From: a virus
IMG/VR virus record: IMGVR_UViG_3300037549_000087
Coordinates: 1-25,512 of that record
Length of the DNA: 25,512 nucleotides
Reading direction: 5' to 3' (one strand)
Below, in pieces: positions 964 to 20,210 of the stretch; the stretch's first letter is position 1, and each line of letters begins with the position of its first letter. A program made the position numbers and the translations under genes. The notes under the pieces are model-generated. The model saw only the letters and a program-made list of their open reading frames with translations, was not told the DNA's origin and ran no database searches.

Positions 964-1265
964 AGATCCCCGCCTGGGCGCCAAAGGATAGCGCCGAAGA
1001 ACTCTCTCACATGAACCCGTCCTTTCGGCTGGGCTGGGCGGCTTGCCGTGACGACGCCCAGGTCGAGATCGACCGGCTCACGGCGCTAATCGAGGCCATG
1101 CAAACCTTAAAACCAGTTGCGGCGCCCTGCGCAGATCTGCAAGGCGAACAGGATTTGCAGACCCCCGCCCCGGCCGTCGTTACGACGGCAACTAACGACG
1201 AAAAGGCTCGGGTCGCCCGAATTGCAAACCGCTGCACGTACCAAGGCGGGCCAGGGACGCCATGA
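960..1265 (+). CDS. Hypothetical protein
   Basis: A 101-residue protein with a GTG start overlapping the previous stop as GTGA. AAGGA at 947-951 lies 8 bases upstream and supports this start. The first half (residues about 12-50) is predicted helical and contains a FRLGWAACRDDAQVEIDRL segment of the sort seen in short phage accessory proteins. The second half is rich in Ala, Pro and Thr and looks disordered. It carries no leader of the QTT type that marks the nine frames after it, so the leader run begins just downstream. The function is unknown. Confidence 0.6.
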   Translation: MKIPAWAPKDSAEELSHMNPSFRLGWAACRDDAQVEIDRLTALIEAMQTLKPVAAPCADLQGEQDLQTPAPAVVTTATNDEKARVARIANRCTYQGGPGTP

Positions 1266-1432
1266 CCGATCCCCAAACCACCAAGACCGAAGCGAAAGCC
1301 CTCGCAAAACAGCTATGGGATGCAGAGCGCGCCGTGCTACGCAACGCGCATCCATCGTGGCAGATGCCTGCATGGAGCCGCGCCCCGGCATGGCGGAAGC
1401 ACCCCTACCTCATGGAGGCCAACGCACGATGA
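1262..1432 (+). CDS. Small protein with QTT leader
   Basis: A 56-residue protein, translationally coupled on both sides by ATGA overlaps. It starts MTDPQTTK, the fullest form of the leader repeated at the start of the next eight frames. The body is rich in Trp, Ala and basic residues (four Trp between residues 19 and 45) with no recognised domain. The upstream ribosome binding site is poor (AGGGAC). The start is chosen from the leader and the coupled overlap. The function is unknown. Confidence 0.6.
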   Translation: MTDPQTTKTEAKALAKQLWDAERAVLRNAHPSWQMPAWSRAPAWRKHPYLMEANAR

Positions 1433-1716
1433 CACAAACCACCAAAGCCGAGACAATTGAGCCGCTATGTCAAGCATTTCCGGTCAGTATGATTTCCGGC
1501 GCCGGTACGCAAGGCAGCGATCAAACCGTGGGGCAAACCACCCCGCCGTGGCCACCGCGCGATCTGGTCGAGAAGGTAGCCCGCGCGATTTATGTGGCTG
1601 AAGGAAACGACCCAGACGTTATATCCCACGAGCATATGGCCGGTTGGGAATACCGTGATGCAGAAGCCGTTGCGGCCATTCAAGCAGTCAGAGGATATGA
1701 CCGTGCCCGAACCTGA
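1429..1716 (+). CDS. Small phage protein with QTT leader
   Basis: A 95-residue protein starting MTQTTKAE, with GGAGG upstream and an ATGA overlap with the previous gene. Residues about 45-95 (DLVEKVARAIYVAEG, then AEAVAAIQAV) match a short helical domain common in phage accessory genes, whose pattern is ARAIxxAEG followed by W and an Ala-rich helix. I know no function for it. Just before this domain, at residues about 36-38, an in-frame GQTTPP repeats the leader core (GGGCAAACCACC). The leader has therefore been copied to the domain boundary as well as to the start codon. Confidence 0.65.
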   Translation: MTQTTKAETIEPLCQAFPVSMISGAGTQGSDQTVGQTTPPWPPRDLVEKVARAIYVAEGNDPDVISHEHMAGWEYRDAEAVAAIQAVRGYDRART

Positions 1717-1924
1717 AACCACCCCGCAGTGCCCTACCTGCGCATTAGAACGTGCAGAGTGAAATGGCGCTTTGGCGATAGCCCGTGAAGCAAATGTGAG
1801 GTCTATGCGTGCCGCTTATCTGGAAGACGAGATCGAGCGGCTGAAAGACGCACTACACCGGATCATGAATTTGCCGGGCGGCGGCCCTGCTTTCGACATC
1901 GCATTGGAGGCGTTTGCGGCATGA
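1697..1924 (+). pseudogene. Small zinc-motif gene split by in-frame TGA
   Basis: One open frame from the ATG at 1697 to the TGA at 1922-1924 is interrupted by a single TGA at 1760-1762. The first part reads MTVPEPETTPQCPTCALERAE and has a CxxC pair and the leader-type start. The second part continues NGALAIAREANVRSMRAAY, then a charged helix LEDEIERLKDALHR. If the TGA were TGG (Trp), the frame would encode a 75-residue protein. TGA serves as the normal stop in the neighbouring ATGA overlaps, so reassignment is unlikely. Alternatively there are two short peptides, the second starting at ATG 1805 (39 residues). The end overlaps the next gene as ATGA. Confidence 0.5.
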
Positions 1925-2097
1925 CAACACATACCACCGCTGATGAAGATGCGCCCGAGCCATGCCGGACCTGTGAAGGCAGCGGCGAGGTGTTCGTCCG
2001 GCGCAATAGCCGAGGCCGCATCGACTATATCGACGGATCACCCACCAGCGAGACGACGCGCTGCGATATGTGCAACGGCGAAGGGGTCAGGTCATGA
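1921..2097 (+). CDS. DnaJ-type zinc-ribbon small protein
   Basis: A 58-residue protein starting MTTHTTADE, a divergent form of the shared leader. It has two CxxCxGxG motifs, CRTCEGSGE (residues 15-23) and CDMCNGEG (residues 48-55). This is the DnaJ-style zinc-binding repeat common in tiny phage proteins, and the four Cys would bind one zinc. GGAGG sits upstream of the start. Both ends overlap their neighbours by ATGA. A nucleic-acid or protein binding role is usual for such ribbons, but the substrate is unknown. Confidence 0.7.
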   Translation: MTTHTTADEDAPEPCRTCEGSGEVFVRRNSRGRIDYIDGSPTSETTRCDMCNGEGVRS

Positions 2098-2270
2098 CAA
2101 CGCAAACCACCGAAGCCATCGTTCACTCGTCAGGATCAACACGGGAAGATTTTGTTATTCAGCTACATGAGGCTGTTCGCTCTGCGACTTGGGGAAAGTT
2201 TGAAAAATCCCGCGCAGAACTCCACGGCGCTTTCATCGTCTTAGCCCGAATGGAAGCTGCAAATGTCTGA
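2094..2270 (+). CDS. Hypothetical small protein with QTT leader
   Basis: A 58-residue protein starting MTTQTTEA. I chose the ATG at 2094 over an in-frame ATG at 2070 because it carries the leader and overlaps the previous stop as ATGA. The body is mostly predicted helical (REDFVIQLHEAVRSATWGKFEKSRAEL) and acidic to neutral. No family is recognised. Its base composition is a little more AT-rich than the genes around it. It overlaps the next gene by 8 bases. Confidence 0.55.
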   Translation: MTTQTTEAIVHSSGSTREDFVIQLHEAVRSATWGKFEKSRAELHGAFIVLARMEAANV

Positions 2271-2757
2271 CCCCCAAACCACCGACCTGATCGACATTCT
2301 TAATTCGTATCGGCGTCCAACCGGGCCAAACTATCACCGGGAATATCAGGAATATTTGCGCTCGCATGGGTGGGAAATCATCTCCGAGGACGAAGGCCGT
2401 TTGCACGGGCTGTGGAAAGGCCCTCCCGAAAGCCACCCCATGTATGCCCCCCCGCCATGCCCTGGCCTCACCGATCCGTGGCCGCATCCCGGCGTGCTGG
2501 TTCGTGTGGCTGAACGCGAGCAAACCACCAAAGGCTGGCAGCCGATCGAAACCGCGCCAAAGGCTCCATTCGACAAATACGGTCAGGAAGAAGGTCCGAT
2601 GATCCTTCTTTGCGGAGGCTTCTTATCTGGCGGTCAGCCTTCAGTCCGCACAGGCCATTGGAAGGGGAAGCGCACAAATGCCTGGGCTGATACAGCACTT
2701 GGCCGATGCCCACGCATACCCACCCACTGGATGCCTCTACCGGAGCCACCGAAATGA
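2263..2757 (+). CDS. DUF551-containing protein with QTT leader
   Basis: A 164-residue protein starting MSDPQTTD. Residues about 91-163 carry the DUF551 signature: GWQPIETAPK near the start, ILLCGG, GHWKG, and the closing THWMPLPEPP. DUF551 is widespread in phages and of unknown function. It normally forms nearly the whole of a short protein. Here about 85 residues of unrelated sequence precede it, and the junction reads REQTTKGWQPIE, so a second in-frame copy of the leader core sits directly before the domain. This suggests that two leader-bearing genes fused. GGAAG precedes the start, and the end overlaps the next ATG as ATGA. Confidence 0.8.
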   Translation: MSDPQTTDLIDILNSYRRPTGPNYHREYQEYLRSHGWEIISEDEGRLHGLWKGPPESHPMYAPPPCPGLTDPWPHPGVLVRVAEREQTTKGWQPIETAPKAPFDKYGQEEGPMILLCGGFLSGGQPSVRTGHWKGKRTNAWADTALGRCPRIPTHWMPLPEPPK

Positions 2758-3092
2758 CCGACCCCCAAACCACCAAAGCCTTCCCGACCGCCGACGTGAT
2801 TGGTGCCATAACAGGCGTCTTGCTGGCCAAGATCGACGGCATCTATGAGGTGTCGCAGTTTATGTGTGGCGAGCCGGTATGGACACACCAGCTTCCGCGC
2901 GTCGGGCGTGAGATACAGCCGGTTGTGCTGCGGCAGCATCCCCATCTTGCCCCGTTGATCGAGGAAGCCAAGGAGGTGAACCCGGACAATTATCAGGAGA
3001 AACTAGCCGGATGGGTGGATCGCTTTGGCGACACAATCACCCTGTCACCGATGGGCGCCGATGACCACGAAAGCATCGACCCACTGTCATAG
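2754..3092 (+). CDS. DUF7736-like phage protein with QTT leader
   Basis: A 112-residue protein starting MTDPQTTKAF, with GGAG upstream and an ATGA overlap with the preceding gene. The segment DVIGAITGVLL, then IYEVSQFMCGEPVWTHQLPRVGREIQP and LRQHPHLAP, resembles a short phage domain I associate with DUF7736. That name is from memory and uncertain. The first 15 bases after the T-D-P codons (CAAACCACCAAAGCC) are identical to those in the gene at 1429, although the proteins differ after that. It is followed by the first non-overlapping gap of the run (44 bases). Confidence 0.65.
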   Translation: MTDPQTTKAFPTADVIGAITGVLLAKIDGIYEVSQFMCGEPVWTHQLPRVGREIQPVVLRQHPHLAPLIEEAKEVNPDNYQEKLAGWVDRFGDTITLSPMGADDHESIDPLS

Positions 3093-3136
3093 TTGGCAGA
3101 GAAGTTTCACACCGACCGCATTATCACGGTGTCGCC

Positions 3137-3268
3137 ATGACCAACCCGAAAACCACCTTTCAAATCGAGCCCGATGAGATCGAGTCTGACGAAATCGAGT
3201 CCGACGAGAGTGATGACAGCCTTCATTTTGCACACTCATGCGGCAGCAGCACGGTGGGTTGGCCATGA
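3137..3268 (+). CDS. Acidic small protein with QTT-type leader
   Basis: A 43-residue protein starting MTNPKTTF. Residues about 11-27 are a short acidic repeat, (D/S)EIES three times over, encoded by an imperfect 15-bp tandem repeat (GAGTC/TGACGAAATC type). Such a small acidic protein could mimic DNA or bind a basic partner, but that is speculation. A weak 6-bp hairpin (3109-3114 with 3127-3132) precedes the start, and I see no good ribosome binding site. It ends in an ATGA overlap with the next gene. Confidence 0.5.
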   Translation: MTNPKTTFQIEPDEIESDEIESDESDDSLHFAHSCGSSTVGWP

Positions 3269-3534
3269 CCGACCCACAAACCACAGTGCCGCATGATAAG
3301 CGCGTAGACGATCTGACACTTAGCGATCTGATCGCGCTGTATAAACTGCGCATGACCGAGCAAACCCAAACCACCGCGCTTCCGCGCCCCGATGATTGGA
3401 AGCAGCGAAACCCGCACCGCACTACACCGCGTTGTCAAAAGTGCGACACTCCGTTTCTAGGGATCATCCCGGCACGGTGCAGCCTCACCGGACAGGACGA
3501 GTGGTCATGCGATTATTGTGGAGTTGTAAAATGA
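3265..3534 (+). CDS. Zinc-ribbon protein with two QTT leaders
   Basis: An 89-residue protein starting MTDPQTTV. Residues about 53-89 form a four-Cys zinc ribbon (CQKC, then CSLTGQDEWSCDYCG), typical of phage nucleic-acid-binding peptides. At residue 30 (ATG 3352) the frame reads MTEQTQTTALP. This is another full leader with its own ATG, so a shorter 60-residue product holding only the ribbon is possible. The arrangement looks like a former separate gene read through into its upstream neighbour. Confidence 0.65.
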   Translation: MTDPQTTVPHDKRVDDLTLSDLIALYKLRMTEQTQTTALPRPDDWKQRNPHRTTPRCQKCDTPFLGIIPARCSLTGQDEWSCDYCGVVK

Positions 3535-3553
3535 TCGAACGTCATACTGCCCA

Positions 3554-3853
3554 ATGAGTATTCACGACGCGCAATGCGAAGCCGCTATTACTCAATCACC
3601 AACAAGAGCCATTCCTTGGTTTTTGATGGCGTCATACCTCTACTACCACAAAGACCTAATCATCATCAGCGATGCGCAGTTTGATAGGGTCTGCCGATCT
3701 CTCGAACATAACTGGCTCGATCTCGACCATCCCCACATGAGCCTCATCTTGCCGAACGACGAGGGCCAGATCGCATCTGGATTTCACCTCTCCGAGAAAG
3801 AGTATCCAAGCATCGTAAAACACGCCGCGCTGCGCCTCTACGATGGACGCTGA
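3554..3853 (+). CDS. Ligase domain Ia-like small protein
   Basis: A 99-residue protein. The segment IPWFLMASYLYYHKDLIIISDAQFDRVCRSLEHNWLDLDHPH (residues about 20-61) matches the pattern of domain Ia of NAD-dependent DNA ligase, YYxxDxPxISDAxYDxLxxxL. That pattern recurs in short stand-alone phage proteins. The catalytic adenylation lysine domain is absent, so it cannot be a ligase by itself. The later EYPSIVKHAALRLY is also seen in these phage proteins. It lacks the QTT leader and an evident ribosome binding site, is separated by 19 bases from the previous gene, and is the last gene of the left accessory run. Confidence 0.65.
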   Translation: MSIHDAQCEAAITQSPTRAIPWFLMASYLYYHKDLIIISDAQFDRVCRSLEHNWLDLDHPHMSLILPNDEGQIASGFHLSEKEYPSIVKHAALRLYDGR

Positions 3854-3903
3854 AAATAATTCTTTCCAAACGATCACAGTGACTTAGCTCTATTCTGCCC
3901 GTC

Positions 3904-3914
3904 TTGACTGTCAA
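3904..3914. promoter_or_regulatory. TTGAC-T-GTCAA dyad
   Basis: A perfect odd-centred palindrome lies in the gap between the accessory run and the gene at 4004. It belongs to the TGAC/GTCA element family that recurs at 121-289 and 9243-9280. It could be an operator, or a -35-like box for transcription of the tail gene pair downstream. I see no clear -10 box. Confidence 0.35.
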
Positions 3915-3948
3915 AAATTGCAAATTCTGCTTGACGGCCGCCGCAGTC

Positions 3949-3999
3949 GCCTCCAAAAACAGTCCCGGACGAACTTGCGTCTAAAGCGTTTTTGGAGGC
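3949..3999 (+). promoter_or_regulatory. Hairpin sequestering ribosome binding site
   Basis: GCCTCCAAAAAC (3949-3960) is a perfect 12-bp inverted copy of GTTTTTGGAGGC (3988-3999), with a 27-base loop. The 3' arm contains GGAGG (3994-3998), which is the ribosome binding site of the gene starting at 4004. In the folded transcript the site would be buried, so translation of the 4004/4166 pair may need unfolding by a ribosome, a protein or another RNA. Confidence 0.6.
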
Positions 4000-4003
4000 T
4001 GAC

Positions 4004-4165
4004 ATGGCCTGCGGCTCCTGCGCCGAGCGGCGCCAGATCCTTCTTCAAGCGATGAAAAACACCGTGACCTCCAAGCCAATCGCGCCCCAGGTCAAGGCTT
4101 TCAACGCTACCGTCCGCAAAGACATCAGCGCGGTCAAAGTTCGTTTGATGCGGGTTGGCAAGTAA
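4004..4165 (+). CDS. Small CxxC protein
   Basis: A 53-residue basic protein starting MACGSCAERRQILLQAMK. The ATG is preceded by GGAGG at 3994-3998 with ideal spacing. The CGSC pair near the N terminus could bind metal with a partner molecule; only two Cys are present. Residues 20-53 are basic (K and R throughout) and likely helical. It stops directly against the GTG of the next gene (TAAGTG), so the two are co-translated. Being paired with a tail gene suggests a virion-assembly role, though no family name can be given. Confidence 0.6.
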   Translation: MACGSCAERRQILLQAMKNTVTSKPIAPQVKAFNATVRKDISAVKVRLMRVGK

Positions 4166-4804
4166 GTGGCTACGAACAACCGCTCGGGCCTTTCGGGCGG
4201 CTATTCCTTCGAGGCCCAAATCGACATGGAGAAGATCGCCAAGGCGATCGAGATCTATGGCGACGAGATCAAATTCGTTGGCGTGCCCCGTGCGATCAAC
4301 CGCGGTGGCCAAGCCGGCACCGTTCGCCTGATCCGGGCTCTCGCCGGCCAGACTGGACTTACCTCTACGCTGGTCCGCAAGAACATCACGACCGAGAAGG
4401 CGAACCGTTCGCGGTGGCGCTTCACGTTCAAGGCTTCGAGCAAGGCGCTCGGTCTGTCGGCGTTCGGATTGCGTGGCAAAGTCGGTAGCGGAAAGCGCAG
4501 CCGGCCTTTTCAGGTGTGGGCAAAGCCCTGGGGCGTCAAAACCGTTTTCAAGAATGCCTTCATCGTCCGCACCAAGGGCGGCCAGCTTGAGGCTTTCAAG
4601 CGTAGCGCCGGCAAACACGGGCGCCATAACATCAAGATGCTCTATGGCCCGATCATTTCTTACGAAATGGTGCGCCAAGGTGGCGGGCACCAACGCGCAT
4701 CCGTCCAAGAGATCTTAAAAATTGCTGAGGACGTGGCGATCCGCCGGCTGCCGCACGAAATGAACTTTGCCTTCGAGCAAGCCAAAGCAAAGAGCGGCAC
4801 GTAG
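4166..4804 (+). CDS. Minor tail protein Z-like tail completion protein
   Basis: A 212-residue protein with a GTG start touching the previous stop. The pattern of residues about 35-85 (VPRAINRGGQAGTVRLIRALAGQTGLTSTLVRKNI) and the late RSAGKHGRHNIKMLYGPIISYEM fits the minor tail protein Z family. Those proteins complete the tail end that joins the head in lambda-like and other phages. A central glycine-rich basic stretch (GLRGKVGSGKRSRP) is typical. Such genes usually sit between the portal/capsid genes and the tail tube. Here it is about 20 kb from the sheath gene in window coordinates and has its own regulated leader. The family call rests on overall pattern, not on a catalytic motif. Confidence 0.7.
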   Translation: MATNNRSGLSGGYSFEAQIDMEKIAKAIEIYGDEIKFVGVPRAINRGGQAGTVRLIRALAGQTGLTSTLVRKNITTEKANRSRWRFTFKASSKALGLSAFGLRGKVGSGKRSRPFQVWAKPWGVKTVFKNAFIVRTKGGQLEAFKRSAGKHGRHNIKMLYGPIISYEMVRQGGGHQRASVQEILKIAEDVAIRRLPHEMNFAFEQAKAKSGT

Positions 4805-4825
4805 GTATCTTTTCGGCTCAAATTC

Positions 4826-5102
4826 GAGCACGAAAAATCGTCGCCAAAGTTTTGTCCCCTGCATTTCGGTTCAAAGCGAGCGCCTAAAAACCGCCACCAA
4901 AGTTTCGTGCGAAGTTTTGCTTCCAACTTCGTGCTCACAACTTTCGAGGACTTGAGACTGATCTGGTTTAATTTACAGATAAAATACCAGACCGCAACCA
5001 GCCCTCGAAAACCCATGCGGCACCGTGCTCCCGAAGCCAGTGCCGCTTCGCAGCCAGCCTCCTTGTTCCTTTTTGTCCTCTGAACGGGTCGAGGCTGGCT
5101 GC
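4826..5102. other. Hairpin-rich, possibly structured RNA
   Basis: Several perfect inverted repeats follow each other. GAGCACGAA (4826-4834) pairs with TTCGTGCTC (4928-4936). CGAAGTT (4910-4916) pairs with AACTTCG (4925-4931). TTTCGAGG (4942-4949) pairs with CCTCGAAA (5003-5010), enclosing TCTGGT/ACCAGA (4962-4967, 4986-4991). GCAGCCAGCCTC (5050-5061) pairs with GAGGCTGGCTGC (5091-5102). The first arm could instead pair with TTCGTGC at 4904-4910, so alternative folds exist. No open frame is supported here. Strand is unknown. Confidence 0.35.
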
Positions 5103-5155
5103 CCCTATTGCTCGGGCAACCATTCGCTTGACGCTACGCGCCATGTGCGCCGCGA

Positions 5156-5911
5156 TTAGCCCGCGCCTACGCTAGAATTTTTTGGGCAAACCGCTCGCTC
5201 GAAAACCGACTTTTTCCGTCCGACCACGATGTCGCACCGGAATGGGCTTTGTGGCCAAAAAGACACACCCCCGGATAGGACTGAAATCAGTCCTATATCA
5301 CGTTTTCGCGAGGGGACGGGGTGGGCGGGTCCAAAACGGGAACGGACAAGCGGAAACCCGCGGAAATCCGCCATTCCTGCCCAAAAACGGGGGCTGGATT
5401 GGTCAAGCCTTTGATATTGTTCCGTTATTTGGCGTTTCGGGCGTTTCGTGCCCGGATCTGGTGCCCAGGTGGCGCCGTCGCCGGTCGCTGGTGCCCAGGT
5501 GGCGCCGTTGCCGGTCGCTGGTGCCCAGGTGGTGCCGTTGCCGGTCGCTGGTGCCCAGGTGGTGCCGTTGCCGGTCGCTGGTGCCCAGGTGGCGCCGTTG
5601 CCGGTCACTGGTGCCCAGGTGGCGCCGTTGCCGGTCGCTGGTGCCCAGGTGGCGCCGTTGCCGGTCACTGGTGCCCAGGTGGTGCCGTTGCCGGTCGCTG
5701 GTGCCCAGGTGGTGCCGTTGCCGGTCACTGGTGCCCAGGTGGTGCCGTTGCCGGTCGCTGGTGCCCAGGTGGTGCCGTTGCCGGGCACTGGTGCCCAGGT
5801 GGTGCCGTTGCCGGTCGCTGGTGCCCAGGTGGTGCCGTTGCCGGGCACTGGTGCCCAGGTGGTGCCGTTGCCGGTCGCTGGTGCCCAGGTGGTGCCGTAT
5901 CGTTTTGCCAT
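5156..5911 (-). CDS. Doubtful repeat protein (GNGTTWAPAT repeats)
   Basis: Read on the minus strand, an ATG at 5911 opens a 251-residue frame starting MAKRYGTTWAP. It runs through the tandem array as ten-residue repeats, N-G-T-T-W-A-P-(A/V)-(T/P)-G. A purine-rich GAGGGGGCGG lies just upstream as a possible ribosome binding site. Against it: the array is also open in the three plus-strand frames and another minus frame, differences between units change amino acids freely, and the tail after the repeats looks like random translation. The terminator at 5945-5976 also lies upstream of this start. It is listed because the start coincides with the repeat edge. Confidence 0.15.
   Translation of the reverse strand: MAKRYGTTWAPATGNGTTWAPVPGNGTTWAPATGNGTTWAPVPGNGTTWAPATGNGTTWAPVTGNGTTWAPATGNGTTWAPVTGNGATWAPATGNGATWAPVTGNGATWAPATGNGTTWAPATGNGTTWAPATGNGATWAPATGDGATWAPDPGTKRPKRQITEQYQRLDQSSPRFWAGMADFRGFPLVRSRFGPAHPVPSRKRDIGLISVLSGGVSFWPQSPFRCDIVVGRKKSVFERAVCPKNSSVGAG
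5275..5296. promoter_or_regulatory. 22-bp operator-like palindrome
   Basis: ATAGGACTGA (5275-5284) and TCAGTCCTAT (5287-5296) are perfect inverted copies around an AA spacer. No T tract follows, and a 2-base gap is too small for an RNA loop, so a dimeric protein binding site is more likely than a terminator. A shorter dyad of the same form (GCGGA-AA-TCCGC) is at 5360-5371. Confidence 0.5.
5461..5898. repeat. 30-bp tandem repeat array
   Basis: There are fourteen complete 30-bp units plus an 18-base partial unit, head to tail without spacers. Each begins GTGCCCAGGTGG and ends CCGGTCGCTG or a variant. Units differ at three positions: GGCGCC or GGTGCC, GTC or GGC before the end, and CGCTG or CACTG at the end. 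From the fourth unit on, the CGCTG and CACTG endings alternate strictly, so the recent duplication unit was 60 bp. Possible roles are iterons, a partition site or protein docking; none is proven. Confidence 0.9.
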
Positions 5912-5944
5912 CCCGTCCGCCCCCTCACGCAACGCGCCAAACGC

Positions 5945-5976
5945 AAAAACGCCCCACACGGTATCCCGTGGGGGCG
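5945..5976 (-). terminator. Rho-independent terminator of minus-strand operon
   Basis: Read on the minus strand, CGCCCC then CCACGG form a stem with CCGTG and GGGGCG (11 pairs with one bulged T). The loop is GATA, followed at once by TTTTT. This is a textbook intrinsic terminator for transcripts arriving from the six-gene minus-strand operon. It lies about 230 bases past the last gene (end at 6204). Confidence 0.75.
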
Positions 5977-6074
5977 AACAACGCGGCGGACGTGATAGAG
6001 CACGGCGCCGCTTAGGGCGCGTATCTTACGGAATGGCGAGGGTTTGGCACGGGGCTAGATCCTATGGCTTGCAA

Positions 6075-9958: not shown

Positions 9959-10627
9959 ATGGCAGACGCAGCGATCTATCTCTCAAAGGGCGGCCTCGCA
10001 ACCCTTTGGGGCGTCAGCAATGCCCGAGTGTCGCAACTCTGCACCGAGCACCAGCCGGCTAGTTACAGGGATGCGGGGGTCCACCTCCAACCGCTCCTTG
10101 AGATCCGCCCAGCCATCATCGACAAAGCAGCCTTCACGGCCGTTCTGATTGGCGCGACGGCGATCCTCGACGGCAAACACGTCGATGCGGTTGCTGCGGC
10201 CGAGAAGCAAGCCCTTTGGGAGCTTTACTCGTCTGTCCCCATTCCTCGGGGCGTTCGAGGCAAAGCGCACAAGACCATCGTTGCGGAGCGGGAAAACGGC
10301 ACTGAGGCTGCCCAGGCAGCTTTGGCGGCCCGAGATCGCACAGACGCCCTCGCAAGCCTCCGCGTGCGGAAATTAGAGGCTGAGATCGAGGGCCGTGAAC
10401 TTCGCACCTCTCGCGAGAGCGGCGACCTTGTGCGTCGCACCGATGTCGAGCGCGATCTCAAGTCTGCCGGCGCCGTCGTGCAGAGCGCCTTGGGCCTCCT
10501 GCCCTCTCGTATCGCTGAACTCGTGCCGGCGGACCAACGGGTCGAGACGATGCGCCGGGTCGAAGCCGCAATCGAGCGTGCGCTTTACGCGGTCGTGACC
10601 GCTCTTGGAGGGGCCGACGATGAATAG
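9959..10627 (+). CDS. Terminase small subunit
   Basis: A 222-residue protein with ACGAGGG upstream of the ATG. Residues about 10-28 (KGGLATLWGVSNARVSQLC) form a winged-helix-like DNA-binding motif as in lambda Nu1. The middle is a long charged helix (LRVRKLEAEIEGRELRTSRESGDLV), the oligomerisation region. The end contains ALGLLPSRIAELV, a pattern shared by small terminases of the Nu1/DUF1441 type. It recognises the packaging site and loads the large subunit that follows. The stop lies 8 bases inside the next gene, so the two are coupled. Confidence 0.8.
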   Translation: MADAAIYLSKGGLATLWGVSNARVSQLCTEHQPASYRDAGVHLQPLLEIRPAIIDKAAFTAVLIGATAILDGKHVDAVAAAEKQALWELYSSVPIPRGVRGKAHKTIVAERENGTEAAQAALAARDRTDALASLRVRKLEAEIEGRELRTSRESGDLVRRTDVERDLKSAGAVVQSALGLLPSRIAELVPADQRVETMRRVEAAIERALYAVVTALGGADDE

Positions 10628-12410
10628 CGCCGTGAATGCGGGCCTCGCCGCCGGTTTGATGCCCAAGAAGAAATTGAACCTCGCGGAGTGGATGGAACGC
10701 TTTATGCGTCTATCCGCCGAAAGCAGCGCCGAGCCCGGCCCTTTTCGCTTTGGCGACGCTGCCTACCAGCGTGGCATCGCAGAGGCCGTCTCGGACCCGG
10801 CCGTGAACGAGATCGACTTCATGTCGTCTTCCCAGGTCGGCAAGTCTACGATCCTTCGCGGCGTGATCGGCTACTATGCCGAGCACCAGCCGAGCCCGAT
10901 GCTTGTCGTCCTTCCGACCGAGAAAGTCGCGGGCGCCTTCGCCGCCGACTTCGTAGAGCCGATGATCCGCGACACGCCCGTCCTCAAGGCGCTGTTCGCC
11001 TCGAAAGACGGCCGCACGCAGCAAACGCTCAAGAAGTCCTATCCCGGTGGCACGATGACACTCGTCGGCGCCAACGTGCCTTCATCACTTGCCATGCGCC
11101 CGATCAGGGTTGTGTTGGGCGACGAGGTGGATCGGTGGAACAAGTCATCCGGCAAGGAAGGCTCGCCTATTGCCCTGGCTACGGCCCGGACGAAGACATA
11201 CGGCAGCACGCGCAAGCTGATTTGGGTTAGCACGCCCGTCCACAAAGAAACGAGCACGATCTCGGAACTGTTCGAGGCCAGCGACAAACGGTTCTTCAAC
11301 GTCGTCTGTCCCGACTGCCAAGAAGAACAGGCACTCACCTGGGACCGGGTGATTTACACCAAGGGCAAAGAGGACCAAGCGGGCTACTCCTGCAAAAGCT
11401 GTGGCGTGCTATGGAGCGAAGGCAAGAAGCGCAGGCTTGTGGCCCACGGCCGTTGGATCGCCACCGAGGCTTTTACGGGCAAGGCGGGCTTCCATCTTTC
11501 CGAACTCTACAGCCCGTGGTCGAGCATGGCCGCGATGGCGAAGGCATGTGAGGAAAGCAAGGGCCAACCTGGGCTCGAACAGACCTTTTACAACACGATG
11601 CTGGGCTTGCCTTGGTCGGGCGACCTCACGAGCACGGCACAGGTTGCCACCCTGCTTGAGCGTCGGGAAAAGCTGTCCCGCACGGCTATGCCGGCCCGAG
11701 CGTCTTTGGCCACAGCCGGCGTGGACGTTCAACGTGACCGTATCGAGGTTGCCGTCATCGCCTGGGGCGCTGGCGAAGAATGCTGGATCTTGGACCACCA
11801 GAAGCTCTACGGCGACACCAGCGGGCCGCGAGTATGGGAAGACCTCAATGCCTTCTTGCAACGGTCTTACCCGCATCCTTTGGGCCAACGCGTGCCGATC
11901 GAAGTGGTCGCCATCGACAGCGGGTTTATGACCCAAGCGGTTTACGACTTCTCGGCCAAGGCGCAGAGCATCGGCCGGGCATGGTATGCAGTCAAAGGCG
12001 TCGCTGGCCCGCGGCCAATATGGCTCCGGTCAAAAATGCGCTTTAAAGACAATACAAAGCTGTTCCTCATCGGCACAGACGATGCCAAGCAGAATACGTA
12101 TGCGCGTTACCAAGTAGAAACGCATGGACCTGGTTTTGTGCATATTCCAGATTGGCTTGATGAAGCAGTCATTGAGCAAATGGCTTCTGAGTGGTGCCGA
12201 GTTGAATACTCGCCGCACGGTTTCTCAACTCTCGTATGGGAGAAGAAAGCCGGCGCGCGAAATGAAATGCTCGACCTCATGTGCTACAACCTCGCGGCCA
12301 ACCGATCGCTCAACCTCGACCTTGACTACCGCCTGCGGCAGTGGGCGATGGCCACGGTGCCGAAACTGGACGCGGCAGAAATTGGCCGCGCTTATGCAAA
12401 GGGCCGGTGA
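10620..12410 (+). CDS. Terminase large subunit (GpA family)
   Basis: A 596-residue protein that packages DNA into the prohead and cuts it. The ATG at 10620 has GGAGG at about 10 bases. It overlaps the small subunit by 8 bases. Visible motifs: Walker A SSSQVGKST (69-77), Walker B VVLGDEVD (164-171), the STP coupling motif (204-206), and a zinc-like pair CPDC (230-233) with CKSC (258-261). RNase H-like nuclease residues include Asp369 in AGVDVQ and Asp433 in AIDSG. The length is normal for GpA-type terminases. Codons between about 12030 and 12240, in the nuclease domain, are visibly more AT-rich than the rest. Confidence 0.95.
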   Translation: MNSAVNAGLAAGLMPKKKLNLAEWMERFMRLSAESSAEPGPFRFGDAAYQRGIAEAVSDPAVNEIDFMSSSQVGKSTILRGVIGYYAEHQPSPMLVVLPTEKVAGAFAADFVEPMIRDTPVLKALFASKDGRTQQTLKKSYPGGTMTLVGANVPSSLAMRPIRVVLGDEVDRWNKSSGKEGSPIALATARTKTYGSTRKLIWVSTPVHKETSTISELFEASDKRFFNVVCPDCQEEQALTWDRVIYTKGKEDQAGYSCKSCGVLWSEGKKRRLVAHGRWIATEAFTGKAGFHLSELYSPWSSMAAMAKACEESKGQPGLEQTFYNTMLGLPWSGDLTSTAQVATLLERREKLSRTAMPARASLATAGVDVQRDRIEVAVIAWGAGEECWILDHQKLYGDTSGPRVWEDLNAFLQRSYPHPLGQRVPIEVVAIDSGFMTQAVYDFSAKAQSIGRAWYAVKGVAGPRPIWLRSKMRFKDNTKLFLIGTDDAKQNTYARYQVETHGPGFVHIPDWLDEAVIEQMASEWCRVEYSPHGFSTLVWEKKAGARNEMLDLMCYNLAANRSLNLDLDYRLRQWAMATVPKLDAAEIGRAYAKGR

Positions 12411-12610
12411 TGCCAGAGAAGTTGTTCTATGCGCCGTTTCGACTTCAAGAACTTGAGGCAGCTTACTATCAGTTAAAGACCACGGCCGCCCCTCTGACGA
12501 TCAGTAACGGAGAAGGCGGCTTCTACATGGCGACGGTCGATGATTTGCCTTCGATCAAGAAGGACATCGAGACGCTTCGCTATGCCTCGACGCTCACCCA
12601 TTACCAGTAG
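12410..12610 (+). CDS. Small head protein, unrecognised
   Basis: A 66-residue protein starting MPEKLFYAPFRLQELEAAYYQLKTT, with a TGATG overlap with the terminase stop. It is predicted to contain helices with aromatic residues, then SNGEGGFYMATVDDLPSIKKDIETLRYAS. It sits where a gpW-type joiner often lies, but the gene after it fits that family better. The family is unknown. Position suggests a head or packaging accessory role. Confidence 0.5.
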   Translation: MPEKLFYAPFRLQELEAAYYQLKTTAAPLTISNGEGGFYMATVDDLPSIKKDIETLRYASTLTHYQ

Positions 12611-12949: not shown

Positions 12950-14518
12950 ATGGACAGTGATGCCGGCGGACAGGACGCCGCCATGAGGGCGTATCAAGGG
13001 CAGTGGAGCCGCGCGAGCCGCCTGCAATCCTCCGATATCGAAGCCTACCGCTCCAAAGACCATTTACTCTCTGGTGCCCGCGATGTCTCCCGTACGAGCC
13101 CCTACGGCCGCTCGGCCGTGCGGACTTTGGTGGACAACGTAGTTGGCAGCAATTTTGCTCTCTCGATGGACCCCGACCTCACCCTGTTGGGCGTCACGTC
13201 GGAGCAAGCCGAGGAATGGGCGGATCTGGTCGAGGCCGAGTGGCGGGCGTATGCCGAGGGCCTGGGCTTTAGTGCCGACGCGCAACGCCGGCAGTCATTC
13301 AGCGGCCTTATGCGGACAGCGTTCGCGGGTTATTTCGTCGGTGGCGAGGCTCTGGGCTCGGTCGAATGGAAGGCGGGGTTCGGCAGCGCCTACAGCACTT
13401 GTCTCTATCTCATGGACCCCGAACGCCTCAGCGACCCCCACGGCGCCATCGACTACAACTCGAAGCGCCGGATGGGTGTCGAGCGCGACAAGCATGGAGC
13501 GCCGATCGCGTATTGGATCAGGCAGGCCAGTCCTTCCGATGGGCTATGGCAGCCGGCGGCGACTTACAAGTGGGATCGCAAGGCGCGGTTCTCATCGTGG
13601 GGCCGCCCTCGGATTTTGCACGCCTTCGAGGCCGACCGGCCGGATATGAGCCGGGGCCTATCGCACTTCACGACGGCAATCGACCCAATCCGCAGCCTGG
13701 ATGAATACCAGCAGACGGAACTCGAAGCCGCCGCGGTACGTGCGACTTTCGCAGCGACGATCACCTCCGAACTGAATTACGAGCAAGCGATCGGTTTGCT
13801 CGGGCCAGACCAGCGGCAGGCGTTGCAAGCCAACGGCCCGCTTTCGATGGCGCTGCAAATGATGACCGAGCGTCTGGGCTTCTACGGTAGCCAGGACATC
13901 AAGGTCGGCAAGACGAAGATCACTCATCTTCTCCCAAACGAGAAGTTGGACATCAAAAACGGCACGCTGATGCCGGGCGTCCTGAAAGAGTATGACGAAG
14001 TTTCTCTATACAAGATCGCTTCGGCACTTGGCGTTGACTATGCGTCGCTGACCAAGAACTACTCGTCCACCAACTACAGCGGTGCCCGCGTCGCCCTGGC
14101 AGAAATTGCCCGGAGCTACAGCGTCCGCCGGGCCGACTTTACGTCTCAGCTTTGCATTCCGTTCGCGATGGCATGGTTGGAGGAAGCGATCGTTGTTCGC
14201 GAGACGATCCCGATGCTCGGCAAAAGTTCGTTCTACGAAAAGCGCGGCGCTCTGCGCATGGATTTCGACACGCTCGGCAAGCCGCTGATCGACCCGTTGA
14301 AGGAAATGCAGGCAAAGCAAACTCAATACCAGATGGGCGCGACCTCGCTGCGCCAGATCTGCAAAGAGTTCGATATGGACTACCGGCAAGTCTTGGAGCA
14401 ACGCGCTCGTGAGAAAGCCGACATGGCGCTCCTGGGGCTCAAGCCCGAGGACATCAACCCGGACCTCATCGCGCAAGGCGCCGGCCGACCCCCATCATCC
14501 TCGGCGGAAAGCAAATGA
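12950..14518 (+). CDS. Portal protein (lambda gpB family)
   Basis: A 522-residue protein with CGAGG upstream of the ATG. Typical lambda-family portal features: RDVSRTSPYGRSAVRTLVDNVVGSNF near residue 45, WRAYAEG in the wing, DPERLSDP, ILHAFEADRPDMSRGLSHFTTAI, and KNYSSTNYSGARVALAEIARSYSVRR near residue 375. It forms the twelve-fold ring through which DNA enters. The length is normal. The stop overlaps the protease gene start as ATGA. Confidence 0.93.
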   Translation: MDSDAGGQDAAMRAYQGQWSRASRLQSSDIEAYRSKDHLLSGARDVSRTSPYGRSAVRTLVDNVVGSNFALSMDPDLTLLGVTSEQAEEWADLVEAEWRAYAEGLGFSADAQRRQSFSGLMRTAFAGYFVGGEALGSVEWKAGFGSAYSTCLYLMDPERLSDPHGAIDYNSKRRMGVERDKHGAPIAYWIRQASPSDGLWQPAATYKWDRKARFSSWGRPRILHAFEADRPDMSRGLSHFTTAIDPIRSLDEYQQTELEAAAVRATFAATITSELNYEQAIGLLGPDQRQALQANGPLSMALQMMTERLGFYGSQDIKVGKTKITHLLPNEKLDIKNGTLMPGVLKEYDEVSLYKIASALGVDYASLTKNYSSTNYSGARVALAEIARSYSVRRADFTSQLCIPFAMAWLEEAIVVRETIPMLGKSSFYEKRGALRMDFDTLGKPLIDPLKEMQAKQTQYQMGATSLRQICKEFDMDYRQVLEQRAREKADMALLGLKPEDINPDLIAQGAGRPPSSSAESK

Positions 14519-15852
14519 CCCACCTCGCACGCATCGCCGGGCGGCTCTTTGGCGAGCCGCTACTTGTCTCGCAAAGCTACCTCGACGTGGCCCTGACGGC
14601 GATCCACGACCGCCTGGACATCGAGCCGATTGTAGCCGAGAGCGCCTTGGGCGCGCAGATCCGCCCCGCCCGCAGCACAGTGATTGACTTGAACCGGGGC
14701 ATCGCGGTCGTGCCGATCGTCGGCGCACTGGACCACAGGGGCGAGAGCATGAACCCACAATCGGGCATGACCTCATACACGGCGATCCAAGCCACGTTGG
14801 CCCAGGTCGCCAGCACCCGCGGCGTCCGCGCGATTATCCTCGATATCGACAGCCCCGGTGGCTCCGTAGCCGGCGTGATCGAGACGGCCGAGTTCATCAA
14901 GAAGCTCTCAGCCGAGATCCCGATCTACGCCATCGCGAACAGCCTGATGGCATCGGCTGCGTTCTGGCTTGGCTCCGCAGCCACGCGCGTCTACGCGGCC
15001 CCCCTCGCCAACATCGGCAGCGTCGGCGTCGTCGTCGCGCATGTCGATCAAAGCAAGGCGATGGAGAAACGCGGCGTCGCGGTCACGCATATTCACGCGG
15101 GCGCCCGCAAAGTCGATGGCTCGCCCTACGGGCCGCTATCCGATGCGGCCCGTGCAGAAACCCAAGCGCGAATTGACGCGGTTTACGCGCAATTCATCGC
15201 AGCGGTCGCGGACAACCGAGGCATCGACGCCAAGGTTGTTCGTGGAACGGAAGCGGCGATTTTCGGCCCCGAACAGGCGCTCGAACTCGGCTTCATCGAC
15301 GGCATCGGCACCCTGAATGATGTACTCGGCGCCCTGTCAACCCGGATCTCCCCCTCCTTTTCCGGTTATTCCGCAACCAAGGATCAAGCCCAAATGTCCG
15401 AACGCCTTACGTTCGCGCAGTCCGACATGGACAGCGCCATCACCCGCGCTACCGCCGATGCAGCGGCAGCGCACCGCGTCACCGCCGATGCCGCCCTGGC
15501 AACTGCGCTCGCCGCCCGCACCGCTGAGATCGCCGCCGCGGCAGCGACCCTCGCCCCCGAGAACGCCCGCTTGGGTGCCTTCTTTGAAGCCCTGACCGAT
15601 GGTGCGTCTGTTGCCCTTGCCGGCAAGATGAGCGCCCGCATCCCGGCCGCCATTGCGCCGGCTGCCGCTTCTGCCGCCGCTGACCCGGCTCGCGCTCGCG
15701 ATCTGGCGACTGTGTTCGCTGCCGCTGCCCCTGGTGTCAGCGCCGAGGGCGCCCCGGTCGAGGATCTGTCGCCTCGCGACGCCCGCCTCGCCCAGCTTCG
15801 CTCTGCCGCCAAGACCGGCACCGCCACCGTCTACACGGGCGGCGCACGCTAA
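14515..15852 (+). CDS. S49 capsid protease with scaffold domain
   Basis: A 445-residue protein related to lambda gpC and SppA. Residues about 60-275 form the protease domain, with IDSPGGSV (111-118), the nucleophile Ser147 in SLMASAAFW and the general base Lys199 in ARKVDG. These match the Ser-Lys dyad of the family. The remaining 170 residues are Ala-rich and helical, ending SPRDARLAQLRSAAKTG, and correspond to the scaffold region that is also made separately. The enzyme is expected to remove scaffold and trim head proteins inside the prohead. The start is fixed by the ATGA overlap with the portal gene. Confidence 0.92.
   Translation: MTHLARIAGRLFGEPLLVSQSYLDVALTAIHDRLDIEPIVAESALGAQIRPARSTVIDLNRGIAVVPIVGALDHRGESMNPQSGMTSYTAIQATLAQVASTRGVRAIILDIDSPGGSVAGVIETAEFIKKLSAEIPIYAIANSLMASAAFWLGSAATRVYAAPLANIGSVGVVVAHVDQSKAMEKRGVAVTHIHAGARKVDGSPYGPLSDAARAETQARIDAVYAQFIAAVADNRGIDAKVVRGTEAAIFGPEQALELGFIDGIGTLNDVLGALSTRISPSFSGYSATKDQAQMSERLTFAQSDMDSAITRATADAAAAHRVTADAALATALAARTAEIAAAAATLAPENARLGAFFEALTDGASVALAGKMSARIPAAIAPAAASAAADPARARDLATVFAAAAPGVSAEGAPVEDLSPRDARLAQLRSAAKTGTATVYTGGAR
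15394..15852 (+). CDS. Nested scaffold protein (Nu3-like)
   Basis: An in-frame internal ATG at 15394 would give a 152-residue protein identical to the end of the protease. It begins MSERLTFAQSDMDSAITRATADAAAAH. AAGGA at 15379-15383 lies 10 bases upstream as a ribosome binding site. Lambda makes scaffold Nu3 in this way inside gene C, and the sequence here has the same low-complexity helical character. The internal start is inferred from position and the binding site. Confidence 0.55.
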   Translation: MSERLTFAQSDMDSAITRATADAAAAHRVTADAALATALAARTAEIAAAAATLAPENARLGAFFEALTDGASVALAGKMSARIPAAIAPAAASAAADPARARDLATVFAAAAPGVSAEGAPVEDLSPRDARLAQLRSAAKTGTATVYTGGAR

Positions 15853-16338: not shown

Positions 16339-17391
16339 ATGTCCGGTACTGCTTTTACCCTGAACCGCTACGAGACTTGGGAACTCGACGCGATGCTCGA
16401 ACAGATCGAGCGTCCGAACCCCTGGTTGCTGAACACGTTCTTCAACCGCACGAAAATGTTCACGACCCCAACGATCGAGTTTGACTTGATCGACCGTGGC
16501 CGTCGCATGGCCCCGTTCGTGAGCCCGCTCGTCGCCGGCAAGCCGATGCGCCTTGAAGGTATGCGGACCCGCTCGCTCGCGCCGGCATACGTCAAGCCAA
16601 CCGCGATGCTCGTCCCGCAGCAAAGCTACGTTCGCCGCCCAGGCGAAGGCTACGGTGGCACCAAGACGCCGCAGCAACGCTTTGACGAACTGGTGGCCGA
16701 GACGCTGGCACTGCACACCGACATGGTGAACAACCGCCTCGAATGGATGGCCGCCCAGGCTCTCGTGTTCGGCGCCGTTACGATCTCCGGTGAAGAATAC
16801 CAGACTGTGCTTGTCGATTTCGGGCGCGACCCGAGCTTGACATTGAACCTTTCGGGTTTGCCGACTGCCTGGGATCAGGTCGCCGCGACCCCGATGGAAG
16901 ACATCGAGACGATGGCTTTGAAGGTTCGCCAGATCTCCAAAGGTGCCGTCGTCACGGACCTCGTGATGTCTGGCACGACTTGGCAGTTGATCCGCTTCCA
17001 CAGCAACATCAACGACCTGATCTCGGCGTTCTTCCGCCGGGGCAACAGCGAAGTCGATGCGGCGCCGCGCACTGATATGAACGTCGCGCAGCTTGTTGGC
17101 AATCTGAACGGGCGCTTGAACCTGTGGGTCTATGACGCTTACGTGCAGGACGATGCCGGCAACGATCAGCCATTGATCCCCGACTACAACTTGCTCGGCC
17201 TGTCCCATCAGATCGAGGGCACGCAGTATTACGGCGCCATCCTCGACCTCGACGCGCAGATGCAGGCCCGGACCTTGTTCTCGAAGTCGGAGAAGAAGTT
17301 CAATCCGAGCGCCCTCGAACTCGTGTCGCAGTCCGCCCCCCTGGCCGCGCCGAAGCGCCCCAACGCGATGTTCCGCATCATCTGCAAGTAA
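16339..17391 (+). CDS. Major capsid protein (gpE family)
   Basis: A 350-residue HK97-fold capsid protein of the lambda gpE type. Characteristic stretches: FFNRTKMFTTPTIEFDLIDRGRRMAPFVSP (residues about 36-65), GMRTRSLAPAYVKP, then PQQRFDELVAETLALHTDMVNNRLEWMAAQAL, and near the end DLDAQMQARTLFSKSEKKFNPSA. The length is typical of the family (about 340). A weak GGAT-type ribosome binding site precedes it. The gap before it has no terminator. Confidence 0.93.
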   Translation: MSGTAFTLNRYETWELDAMLEQIERPNPWLLNTFFNRTKMFTTPTIEFDLIDRGRRMAPFVSPLVAGKPMRLEGMRTRSLAPAYVKPTAMLVPQQSYVRRPGEGYGGTKTPQQRFDELVAETLALHTDMVNNRLEWMAAQALVFGAVTISGEEYQTVLVDFGRDPSLTLNLSGLPTAWDQVAATPMEDIETMALKVRQISKGAVVTDLVMSGTTWQLIRFHSNINDLISAFFRRGNSEVDAAPRTDMNVAQLVGNLNGRLNLWVYDAYVQDDAGNDQPLIPDYNLLGLSHQIEGTQYYGAILDLDAQMQARTLFSKSEKKFNPSALELVSQSAPLAAPKRPNAMFRIICK

Positions 17392-17969: not shown

Positions 17970-20210
17970 GTGAGCAACACCATCACGCCCAACCCAGCGA
18001 CAAGCACCACGCCCGGTGTCGTCACCACTGGCGCCAACATCACCAACATCGGTGGCAATATCAGCCTCACGGGTGAAAACGTGATCGCAGCCTTGGGCTT
18101 CATGCCCGGCGCCGGCAGCGGCCCCCCAGGCACGCACGGTATGCCCGGAGCCCCAGGCCCAACGGGTGCGCGTGGACCGCAAGGCTACACTGGACCGCAA
18201 GGCCCGGTAGGCGATACAGGCCCGCAGGGTCCGCAAGGCGTGCAAGGCGCAAGCGGCGCCGCTGGTGCGACCGGCCCTGTGGGTGCTCCCGGCGTCCCAG
18301 GCGTGACCGGGCCATCCGGCCCGACCGGCGCGACAGGCGCGACCGGCGCGGCATCATCTGTTGCTGGCCCAGCCGGCGCAACCGGCGCGACTGGACCCGC
18401 TGGCCCGACCGGCGCCGCATCGACGGTCCCAGGCCCAGCCGGCGCAACTGGCGCAACTGGACCCGCTGGCGCGACTGGCGCGACGGGCGCGGCATCGACT
18501 GTTCCTGGCCCAGCCGGTGCGACTGGACCCGCTGGCCCGGCTGGACCGACTGGTGCAACGGGCGCGGCCTCAACTGTTCCTGGCCCAGCCGGTGCGACTG
18601 GACCCGCTGGCCCGGCTGGACCGACTGGCCCGACCGGCGCGACGGGCGCGGCGGGGGCATCAGGTGGCGTAACGGCCCCGGCGACAGGCAGTATCGTTTC
18701 GACTGTTCTCCCAGCCGACTACGTGTACACTTACTCGTCTGGCACGTTCAAATGGATCGCCGCGAGCGATTTTGTTGCCAGCCAGGGGTCGGTCATGCCC
18801 GCGGCAAACGCGGCTGCGGCCAGCGCAACCGATACTTTTTGGGTAAACCAGGGCGGCACTGCGCTTGCCGTGCAGACGATGGCAGCAGTCGTTACCCTGA
18901 CACTCAACGGACTGACCAGCTACAAAGTGCCAAGCGTTGCTGTTTCCGGCTCAATTTTGCTCGACAGCGCGTCACACAACGGCAAGCACGTTATTTTCAC
19001 GGGCGCTGGCACAGTTTCGCCGCCCGCCAGCTACGCCAGCTTTGGTGATGGTTGCTCTTGCGACATTACGAACTTGTCGGGCAGCACTGTGACTTTTGTT
19101 ACGACAACCACTGCCAACGCTGGCGGTATCGTTTCGTCGGGCAATGCCACGTCGCTTCCAAATTTTGGCACGGTTCGCGTTCGGTCATCTACAGCGTTAG
19201 GCGCGAGCGGGACGATCATGGTTACGCTCCCAGGGAGCGCCACGGCTACGCAGTCTGCCACCCTGGTTGCGCCGACTGGCATCACTCCCGGCGCCACGTA
19301 TGCAATCGCGGGCAGCCTGTCCGGATACTCTGCGGCCCCTACGCTTACGATCTCGATCGACGGCGCCGCGTTCGCAGCCCTCCCGACCGGCTCGACCGTC
19401 ACCGCATCGGTCGTCAACTTGTCCATGCCGGGCATTGCATCGGGCACGCACACTGTTCAAGTCAAAGACACAGGCACAGTGCAGTCAAACGTAGTCACGT
19501 TCACGGTTGCGGCTGCGGCCGAGACGATCACCGTCACCACTCCGGGTTCGCACACAGCAGGCACCGCGTTTACGCTCGCCGGCACCTACACCAACGGGCC
19601 GCCAGCCGCGCTCGACTACTCGCTGGACGGCGGGTCCACCTGGGTTGCGGCAGCTTCGCCAACAATCGCTTCGGGCGCGTATAGCTTTTCGCTTACTATT
19701 TCGAGTGCCAACGCATCGCAGACGGTCAAGGTGCGTGACCACACGGCTACAACGACTATTGGCACATCAGGCAGCTTCGTAGTGTCTGCCGCAGCCTCCG
19801 GCCCGGCGAACCCCAACGTGGTCTCGTTCCCGTATGGTGCCCCCCCGACTACGAAAACAGCCGCGGCCTACGGCTCAAGTGCTAATGCACAGCCGGGGAA
19901 CTACTTTGCGCTGACCACAACGGGTGGCGCTGCGCTTATACCTGGGACTGCGGTGGTGATCGCGGGTTGGACAAATTCAACCACCGTTCCTCCTGTTGCC
20001 GCGGCTACCGTTGGGCCATACATCAACACCAACGGATACCAAACCTGCGGCAATGCCGGTGCGTCAAATATGTTTATTGATATTTCCAATGTCACTGCAC
20101 CAACTGGATCTGGAACAGTCAACTACTACTTCTGGGCGTCCTCTAATAACGGTTCGACTTGGAGCATCTACGGTGGTGCGTCGCCTATTGCTTGCGCGGT
20201 CACTTTCTAA
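17970..20210 (+). CDS. Collagen-like tail fibre protein
   Basis: A 746-residue protein. It starts at GTG 17970, with AAAGGA seven bases upstream. Residues 1-50 are a short N-terminal domain ([22 protein letters not shown]), probably attaching to the virion. Residues about 51-230 are Gly-X-Y collagen repeats interrupted by [10 protein letters not shown]-type breaks. Residues about 235-420 are a beta-rich domain of stalk or head type ([21 protein letters not shown]). About 425-640 hold two Ig-like repeats ([20 protein letters not shown], then [25 protein letters not shown]). The last 110 residues are a distinct C-terminal domain, likely the receptor-binding tip. The more AT-rich end suggests exchange. 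It is followed by the esterase gene through a TAATG overlap. Confidence 0.85.
18120..18665 (+). repeat. Collagen Gly-X-Y coding repeats
   Basis: About 60 Gly-X-Y triplets in phase, mostly G-A-T, G-P-A and G-P-T. From about 18350 the DNA is organised as longer tandem units, each opening with GCATC(G/A)ACTGTTCC or a similar block (encoding [10 protein letters not shown]). Two neighbouring units (about 18500-18630) are nearly identical in DNA. Such repeats change length readily and would lengthen or shorten the fibre. Confidence 0.85.

Follow-up and report, generated by a model that had tools for sequence, protein, structure and literature searches.

Nine consecutive small genes of a viral contig begin with variants of one leader, M-T-D-P-Q-T-T, and, on the evidence of the nucleotide sequence, this array leader is a genuine and unusual start-associated repeat of nucleotide-level character that lies within the coding sequence. 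In its behavior, the leader word resembles a DNA signal, regulatory or copied, and not a protein part that the genes have in common. The contig, a 25.5-kb IMG/VR virus record (IMGVR_UViG_3300037549_000087; its whole length of 25,512 bases is referred to here as the window), carries the array at positions 1262-3534, several kilobases before the terminase.

Placement and limits of the core word

The center of the leader is a nine-nucleotide word, CAAACCACC, of which the window holds eight exact copies, each of them on the plus strand in the interval from 1274 to 3375, while dinucleotide shuffles of the window gave a chance expectation of 0.22 copies on average and 2 at most. Four one-base variants (GAAACCACC at 1715, CATACCACC at 1930, AAAACCACC at 3149, and CAAACCACA at 3277) bring the total to 12 plus-strand copies spanning 1274-3375, nine at the starts of open reading frames (ORFs) and three within ORFs. 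The starts that bear a core are those of nine ORFs out of nine in succession (1262, 1429, 1703 [GTG], 1921, 2094, 2263, 2754, 3137, and 3265), and at these the core begins 6, 9, or 12 nucleotides (nt) from the start codon's first base, that is, after two to four codons; the internal cores (1534, 2521, and 3367) are in frame. The initial annotation, which had described nine consecutive frames with a common leader, was thus borne out as to the nine starts, but the copies number 12, three of them internal and in frame.

All core copies lie inside coding sequence and within one 2.1-kb block; no exact copy of the word was found elsewhere in the window, and the structural genes lack it. Its limits are sharp. 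Pairwise identity among the copies is 0.68 to 1.0 inside the nine nucleotides and about 0.2 to 0.45 outside them, the single exception in the flanks being position -2, which is C in 10 of the 12 copies, and an alignment of the flanks revealed no sequence upstream of the start that is common to the array genes. Other loci totaling about 1.9 Mb (414 strands, the window among them) served as a background, in which the number of ORF starts within 3 kb that had a 9-mer in common reached at most 5 and almost never exceeded 4, the exceptions being tandem repeats and, in record L011, a single start-associated repeat located upstream.

The array consists of tightly packed small genes, most of them joined to their neighbors by an ATGA stop-start overlap, which partly fixes the Met-Thr at the starts. 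In the right part of the window, the late module is intact, with the small terminase (9959-10627), the large terminase (TerL; 10620-12410) and the major capsid protein (MCP; 16339-17391), the latter two matched to annotated records, and a portal (12950-14518), an S49-type protease (14515-15852), and a tail-sheath-like ORF (from 24404), all three labeled from a reading of the sequence. The nearest MCPs are those of viral contigs at 60 to 64% identity. The gene after the array (3554-3853), which lacks the leader, encodes a stand-alone 99-amino-acid protein matching the N-terminal domain of NAD-dependent DNA ligase (PF22745; E value, 7.5e-10). Positions 5461-5900 contain a 30-bp unit, GTGCCCAGGTGGTGCCGTTGCCGGTCGCTG, directly repeated about 15 times, and several frames are open there on both strands because the length of the unit is a multiple of three. 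The ORF at 17970-20210 includes a long, collagen-like run of Gly-X-Y and probably encodes a tail fiber or tail-associated protein.

Gene bodies and the origin of the leader

Gene 1 (1262-1432; 56 amino acids, no family; all nine genes are on the plus strand) has the leader MTDPQTT with its core at 1274-1282. Gene 2 (1429-1716) begins with MTQTTKA (core at 1435-1443), contains an internal core at 1534-1542 (GQTT), and probably arose when two once separate genes were fused. Gene 3 (1703-1924), which starts with GTG and has the leader MPEPETT with GAAACCACC, is interrupted by an in-frame TGA at 1760-1762, possibly a mutated Trp codon, past which the same frame runs on to 1924. Gene 4 (1921-2097; MTTHTT, CATACCACC) has a zinc-ribbon body with a DnaJ CXXCXGXG-like pattern (DnaJ-type zinc ribbon; E value, 1.5e-5), and gene 5 (2094-2270; MTTQTTEA, core at 2103-2111) encodes 58 amino acids. 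In gene 6 (2263-2757; MSDPQTT, core at 2275-2283), an internal core at 2521-2529 (EREQTTKG) stands immediately 5' of a DUF551 domain (2530-2757; E value, 2e-5), so that DUF551 forms the latter half of an ORF that arose by fusion and is not a leader-bearing gene of its own. Gene 7 (2754-3092; MTDPQTTKA, core at 2766-2774) has a DUF7736 body (E value, 9e-20). Gene 8 (3137-3268; MTNPKTT, AAAACCACC) has an acidic repeat body, and gene 9 (3265-3534; MTDPQTT, CAAACCACA) contains an internal MTEQTQTT at 3352 with a core at 3367-3375, after which a zinc-ribbon-like body follows. The internal cores at 1534 and 3367 look like junctions of fused genes.

Gene 7 ends at a TAG (3090-3092) in place of a Glu that is conserved in homologues; beyond it, LAEKFHTDRIITVSP still matches them, with 15 codons that agree with their conserved C terminus, up to a TGA that shares bases with the ATG at 3137. 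Recent mutation or sequence error may account for both stops, the one at 1760 and the one at 3090. Stop codon recoding is unlikely, since TAG terminates the ORF at 12410-12610.

An all-against-all comparison of the array bodies yielded no significant similarity. The earlier argument that duplication of whole genes is unable to explain the leader therefore holds: the bodies are mutually unrelated and belong to different Pfam families, and tandem paralogy, which we considered as an ordinary source of shared starts, is rejected because similarity along the full gene is absent.

Two bodies have homologues with which the starts can be compared. A DUF551 relative (L229) begins with MWQPIETAPK, and in gene 6, QTTKG precedes WQPIETAPK; DUF7736 homologues start with MTTKAFPT (L344), MTQTKEFPT (L345), or MSETKAFPT (CcrPW), and gene 7 starts with MTDPQTTKAFPT. 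For both testable bodies, DUF7736 and DUF551, the sequence comparison shows the leader as an addition relative to the homologues. TKAFPT is thus native to DUF7736, the homologues' starts carrying TKAFPT-like sequence. In three copies other than gene 7, the core continues into AAAGCC, GAAGCC, or AAAGGC, each with at least 5 of the 6 bases of AAAGCC kept (P = 3e-4 versus hexamers from the same genes), and in gene 1, it runs into AAGACC. These extensions suggest that the start of the DUF7736 gene, gene 7, was the donor of the leader.

Relatives with the leader on new gene bodies, for which the initial annotation had proposed a search, were not found; the absence is no proof, as the nearest records may lie outside the searched data. 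Searches of viral and genome contigs with exact leader patterns returned only single starts in unrelated genes, and among core pairs 145 to 175 nt apart in viral contigs, none had both members at gene starts (ATG or GTG). No array was found in TerL relatives (385 alphaproteobacterial-class genomes plus viral contigs) or in MCP relatives (60 to 64% identity), one of which, 63 kb long, was read from end to end, and no close relatives were retrieved with the concatenated bodies and the upstream neighbor protein as queries. Among 76 DUF7736 loci, there was no comparable array, and 0 of the 29 N termini inspected had a DPQTT-type leader. With no relative carrying the array, the pattern is without evolutionary replication. 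One relative, L124 (G390; 63,029 bases), is listed as linear and has identical first and last 54 bases; its genome is therefore probably complete and either circular or terminally redundant.

Codon usage inside and beside the core

Within the core, 23 of 24 Thr codons are ACC, whereas ACC accounts for 40% of those elsewhere in the array bodies, and all nine Gln codons are CAA, which elsewhere in the array makes up 25%. ACCACC encodes 11 of the 12 Thr-Thr pairs of the leaders versus 3 of 36 such pairs elsewhere. Codons 2 to 4, in contrast, vary synonymously (CCC, CCG, CCA, and CCT; ACC and ACA). By a hand tally, synonymous departures number 7 of 19 in codons 2 to 4 (7 of 18 without the Asn codon) versus 1 of 33 in the core (Fisher P = 0.002); these statistics count the copies as independent although they are related, and the P values are guides only. 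The contrast between the core and its adjacent codons is an internal one and independent of overall age. Four changes have occurred inside the core, three nonsynonymous and one synonymous.

On this codon evidence, constraint or copying is judged to act at the nucleotide level, and selection on the peptide appears neither needed nor favored. Variation by whole codons had been taken as a sign of peptide selection, which does not agree with core synonymous sites that are frozen beside codons 2 to 4 that vary synonymously; the comparison of synonymous and nonsynonymous change suggested at the outset supports nucleotide-level constancy instead. It is accordingly very improbable that M-T-D-P-Q-T-T serves as a peptide tag that brings the proteins to a common partner or into virions. 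All 12 cores read in the QTT frame, as a tag would demand, but a leader copied together with its start codon keeps the frame anyway, so that frame constancy is no evidence for a tag, and Q itself varies to H, E, and K.

Possible functions and comparison with known systems

Our preferred reading, which we hold tentatively, is that the leader is a start-associated element within the coding sequence, probably a CA-rich translation initiation element copied between gene starts. We infer both the direction of copying and the function. The nine-nucleotide word would have arisen at the 5' end of the DUF7736 gene, from a native start like MTTKAFPT or MTQTKEFPT, and would have been copied, start codon included, onto the starts of neighboring genes. 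In the mRNA, the core would act as a position-tolerant translation initiation element, either as an enhancer bound by the ribosome or as a site for one regulator controlling the whole block. In T4, one regulator, RegA, acts on many early-gene start regions; its operator sites differ in sequence from the array core. A more doubtful extension is a portable in-gene start element: the phage would copy 9 to 27 nt (the start codon and the CA-rich word) from the DUF7736 gene onto newly acquired neighbors, placing unrelated genes under one translational control with a short constant peptide as a by-product.

Among the options raised initially, a regulator site or an enhancer at the nucleotide level fits best, but a generic unstructured enhancer is weak, since ACC offers no more openness than ACA or ACT codons would. 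Folding of the start regions averaged -9.3 kcal/mol for the array and -12.1 kcal/mol for other starts, and five of the nine array starts ranked in the lowest 15% for structure when set against their synonymous versions. The results for generic low structure as a sufficient cause are mixed, and we rejected it; the starts at 1262 and 3265 (two of nine) go against it, being more structured than most of their own synonymous versions. No phage-encoded RNA complementary to the core was found, antisense matches within the contig being no better than in shuffles. The main difficulty for an initiation role is posed by the three internal copies of the 12, which have no clear Shine-Dalgarno site and yet are exact, and which keep readings as a recombination handle or a DNA site alive. 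It also speaks against the initiation element that most true starts already have a Shine-Dalgarno-like stretch, as judged by eye.

As a recombination handle, the common 9 to 23 nt would provide short homology for body exchange and deletions, new bodies being joined at the core. The abrupt limits of the core at either end, the unrelated bodies, the three apparent fusions at cores, and the leader subfamilies in adjacent genes fit this reading, as does the recombination of 13-bp phage repeats, with deletions between stoperators (PMC5712189); we nevertheless consider it unlikely, since 9 nt makes a very short substrate for homologous exchange, the relatives searched yielded no second genome with a swapped body, and the fusions require illegitimate joining, which a handle present at both sites would not give. 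Recent spread of the leader by short 5'-end duplications or template switching, with no selection, seems similarly unlikely: premature stops in two of nine genes and three fossil-like cores in fused ORFs indicate a block in flux, and some copies have longer tracts in common, but the flanking codons have diverged, synonymous sites too, and the core has not. Improbable, in our estimate, is an asymmetric site for a putative phage repressor that would block transcription through the block in one orientation, like a stoperator. The core is asymmetric, has a single orientation relative to transcription, and is present in many copies, with internal sites kept too, and its reverse complement, GGTGGTTTG, is similar to how the L5 stoperator GGTGG(c/a)TGTCAAG begins, a similarity that may be chance (PMC5712189); no repressor was identified in the window, however, and cores at codon-fixed positions near starts are unlike the L5 sites.

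Start-associated sequences (SAS) are little-understood elements noted for over a decade; a version within the coding sequence, such as the array leader may be by analogy, separates the element from the Shine-Dalgarno site. With this position, synonymous recoding of the core (e.g., to CAGACGACG) can tell a nucleotide from a peptide function. The initiation element would also suggest how genes that a phage has newly acquired are brought under shared control.

Small nonstructural genes of phages are known to bear start-associated repeats, examples being those of cluster K mycobacteriophages, Citrobacter phage Mordin, and L011. The SAS of cluster K is 13 bp long, lies just upstream of the start codon, contains AGGAG (Shine-Dalgarno), and has 11 to 19 copies per genome (PMC3203893). 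Like it, the array core is a short asymmetric repeat in one orientation (plus only, nine of nine starts) at the starts of many unrelated small nonstructural genes. Unlike it, the core is coding, begins 6 to 12 nt downstream of the start, and, as CAAACCACC, differs from the SAS consensus GGGATAGGAGCCC in having no Shine-Dalgarno core; the distinction drawn initially between upstream SAS and a coding repeat was correct (PMC3203893). In the myophage Mordin, an SAS-like 26-bp repeat is found at the starts of eight hypothetical genes (PMC4611695); it lies upstream of the start codon, has another sequence, and includes GGAG, whereas the array core is inside genes. L011 (IMGVR_UViG_3300042305_001456), an uncharacterized phage, has an independent repeat, GGAGACTCTGCC followed by ATG, with an SD-like GGAG; it takes the classic upstream SAS position at nine or more small genes in succession on the plus strand (starts from about 2387 to 6045). 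Cluster A stoperators, such as those of L5, are likewise asymmetric repeated sites in one orientation, with documented recombination between copies, but they are DNA repressor sites, mostly intergenic and distributed genome-wide (PMC5712189), and all array cores are coding and confined to their one block. CA repeats and ACA motifs have been reported to raise translation from variable distances, including positions past the start codon, and the core resembles these enhancers and GcvB target sites in being CA-rich, near the start codon, and tolerant of position (PMC3879156); those enhancers belong to cellular genes and lie mostly upstream of the Shine-Dalgarno site, whereas the core has no ACA triplet and is specific for ACCACC. 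It is the in-gene position of the core, downstream of the start codon, together with the specific ACCACC, that differs from both SAS and CA enhancers.
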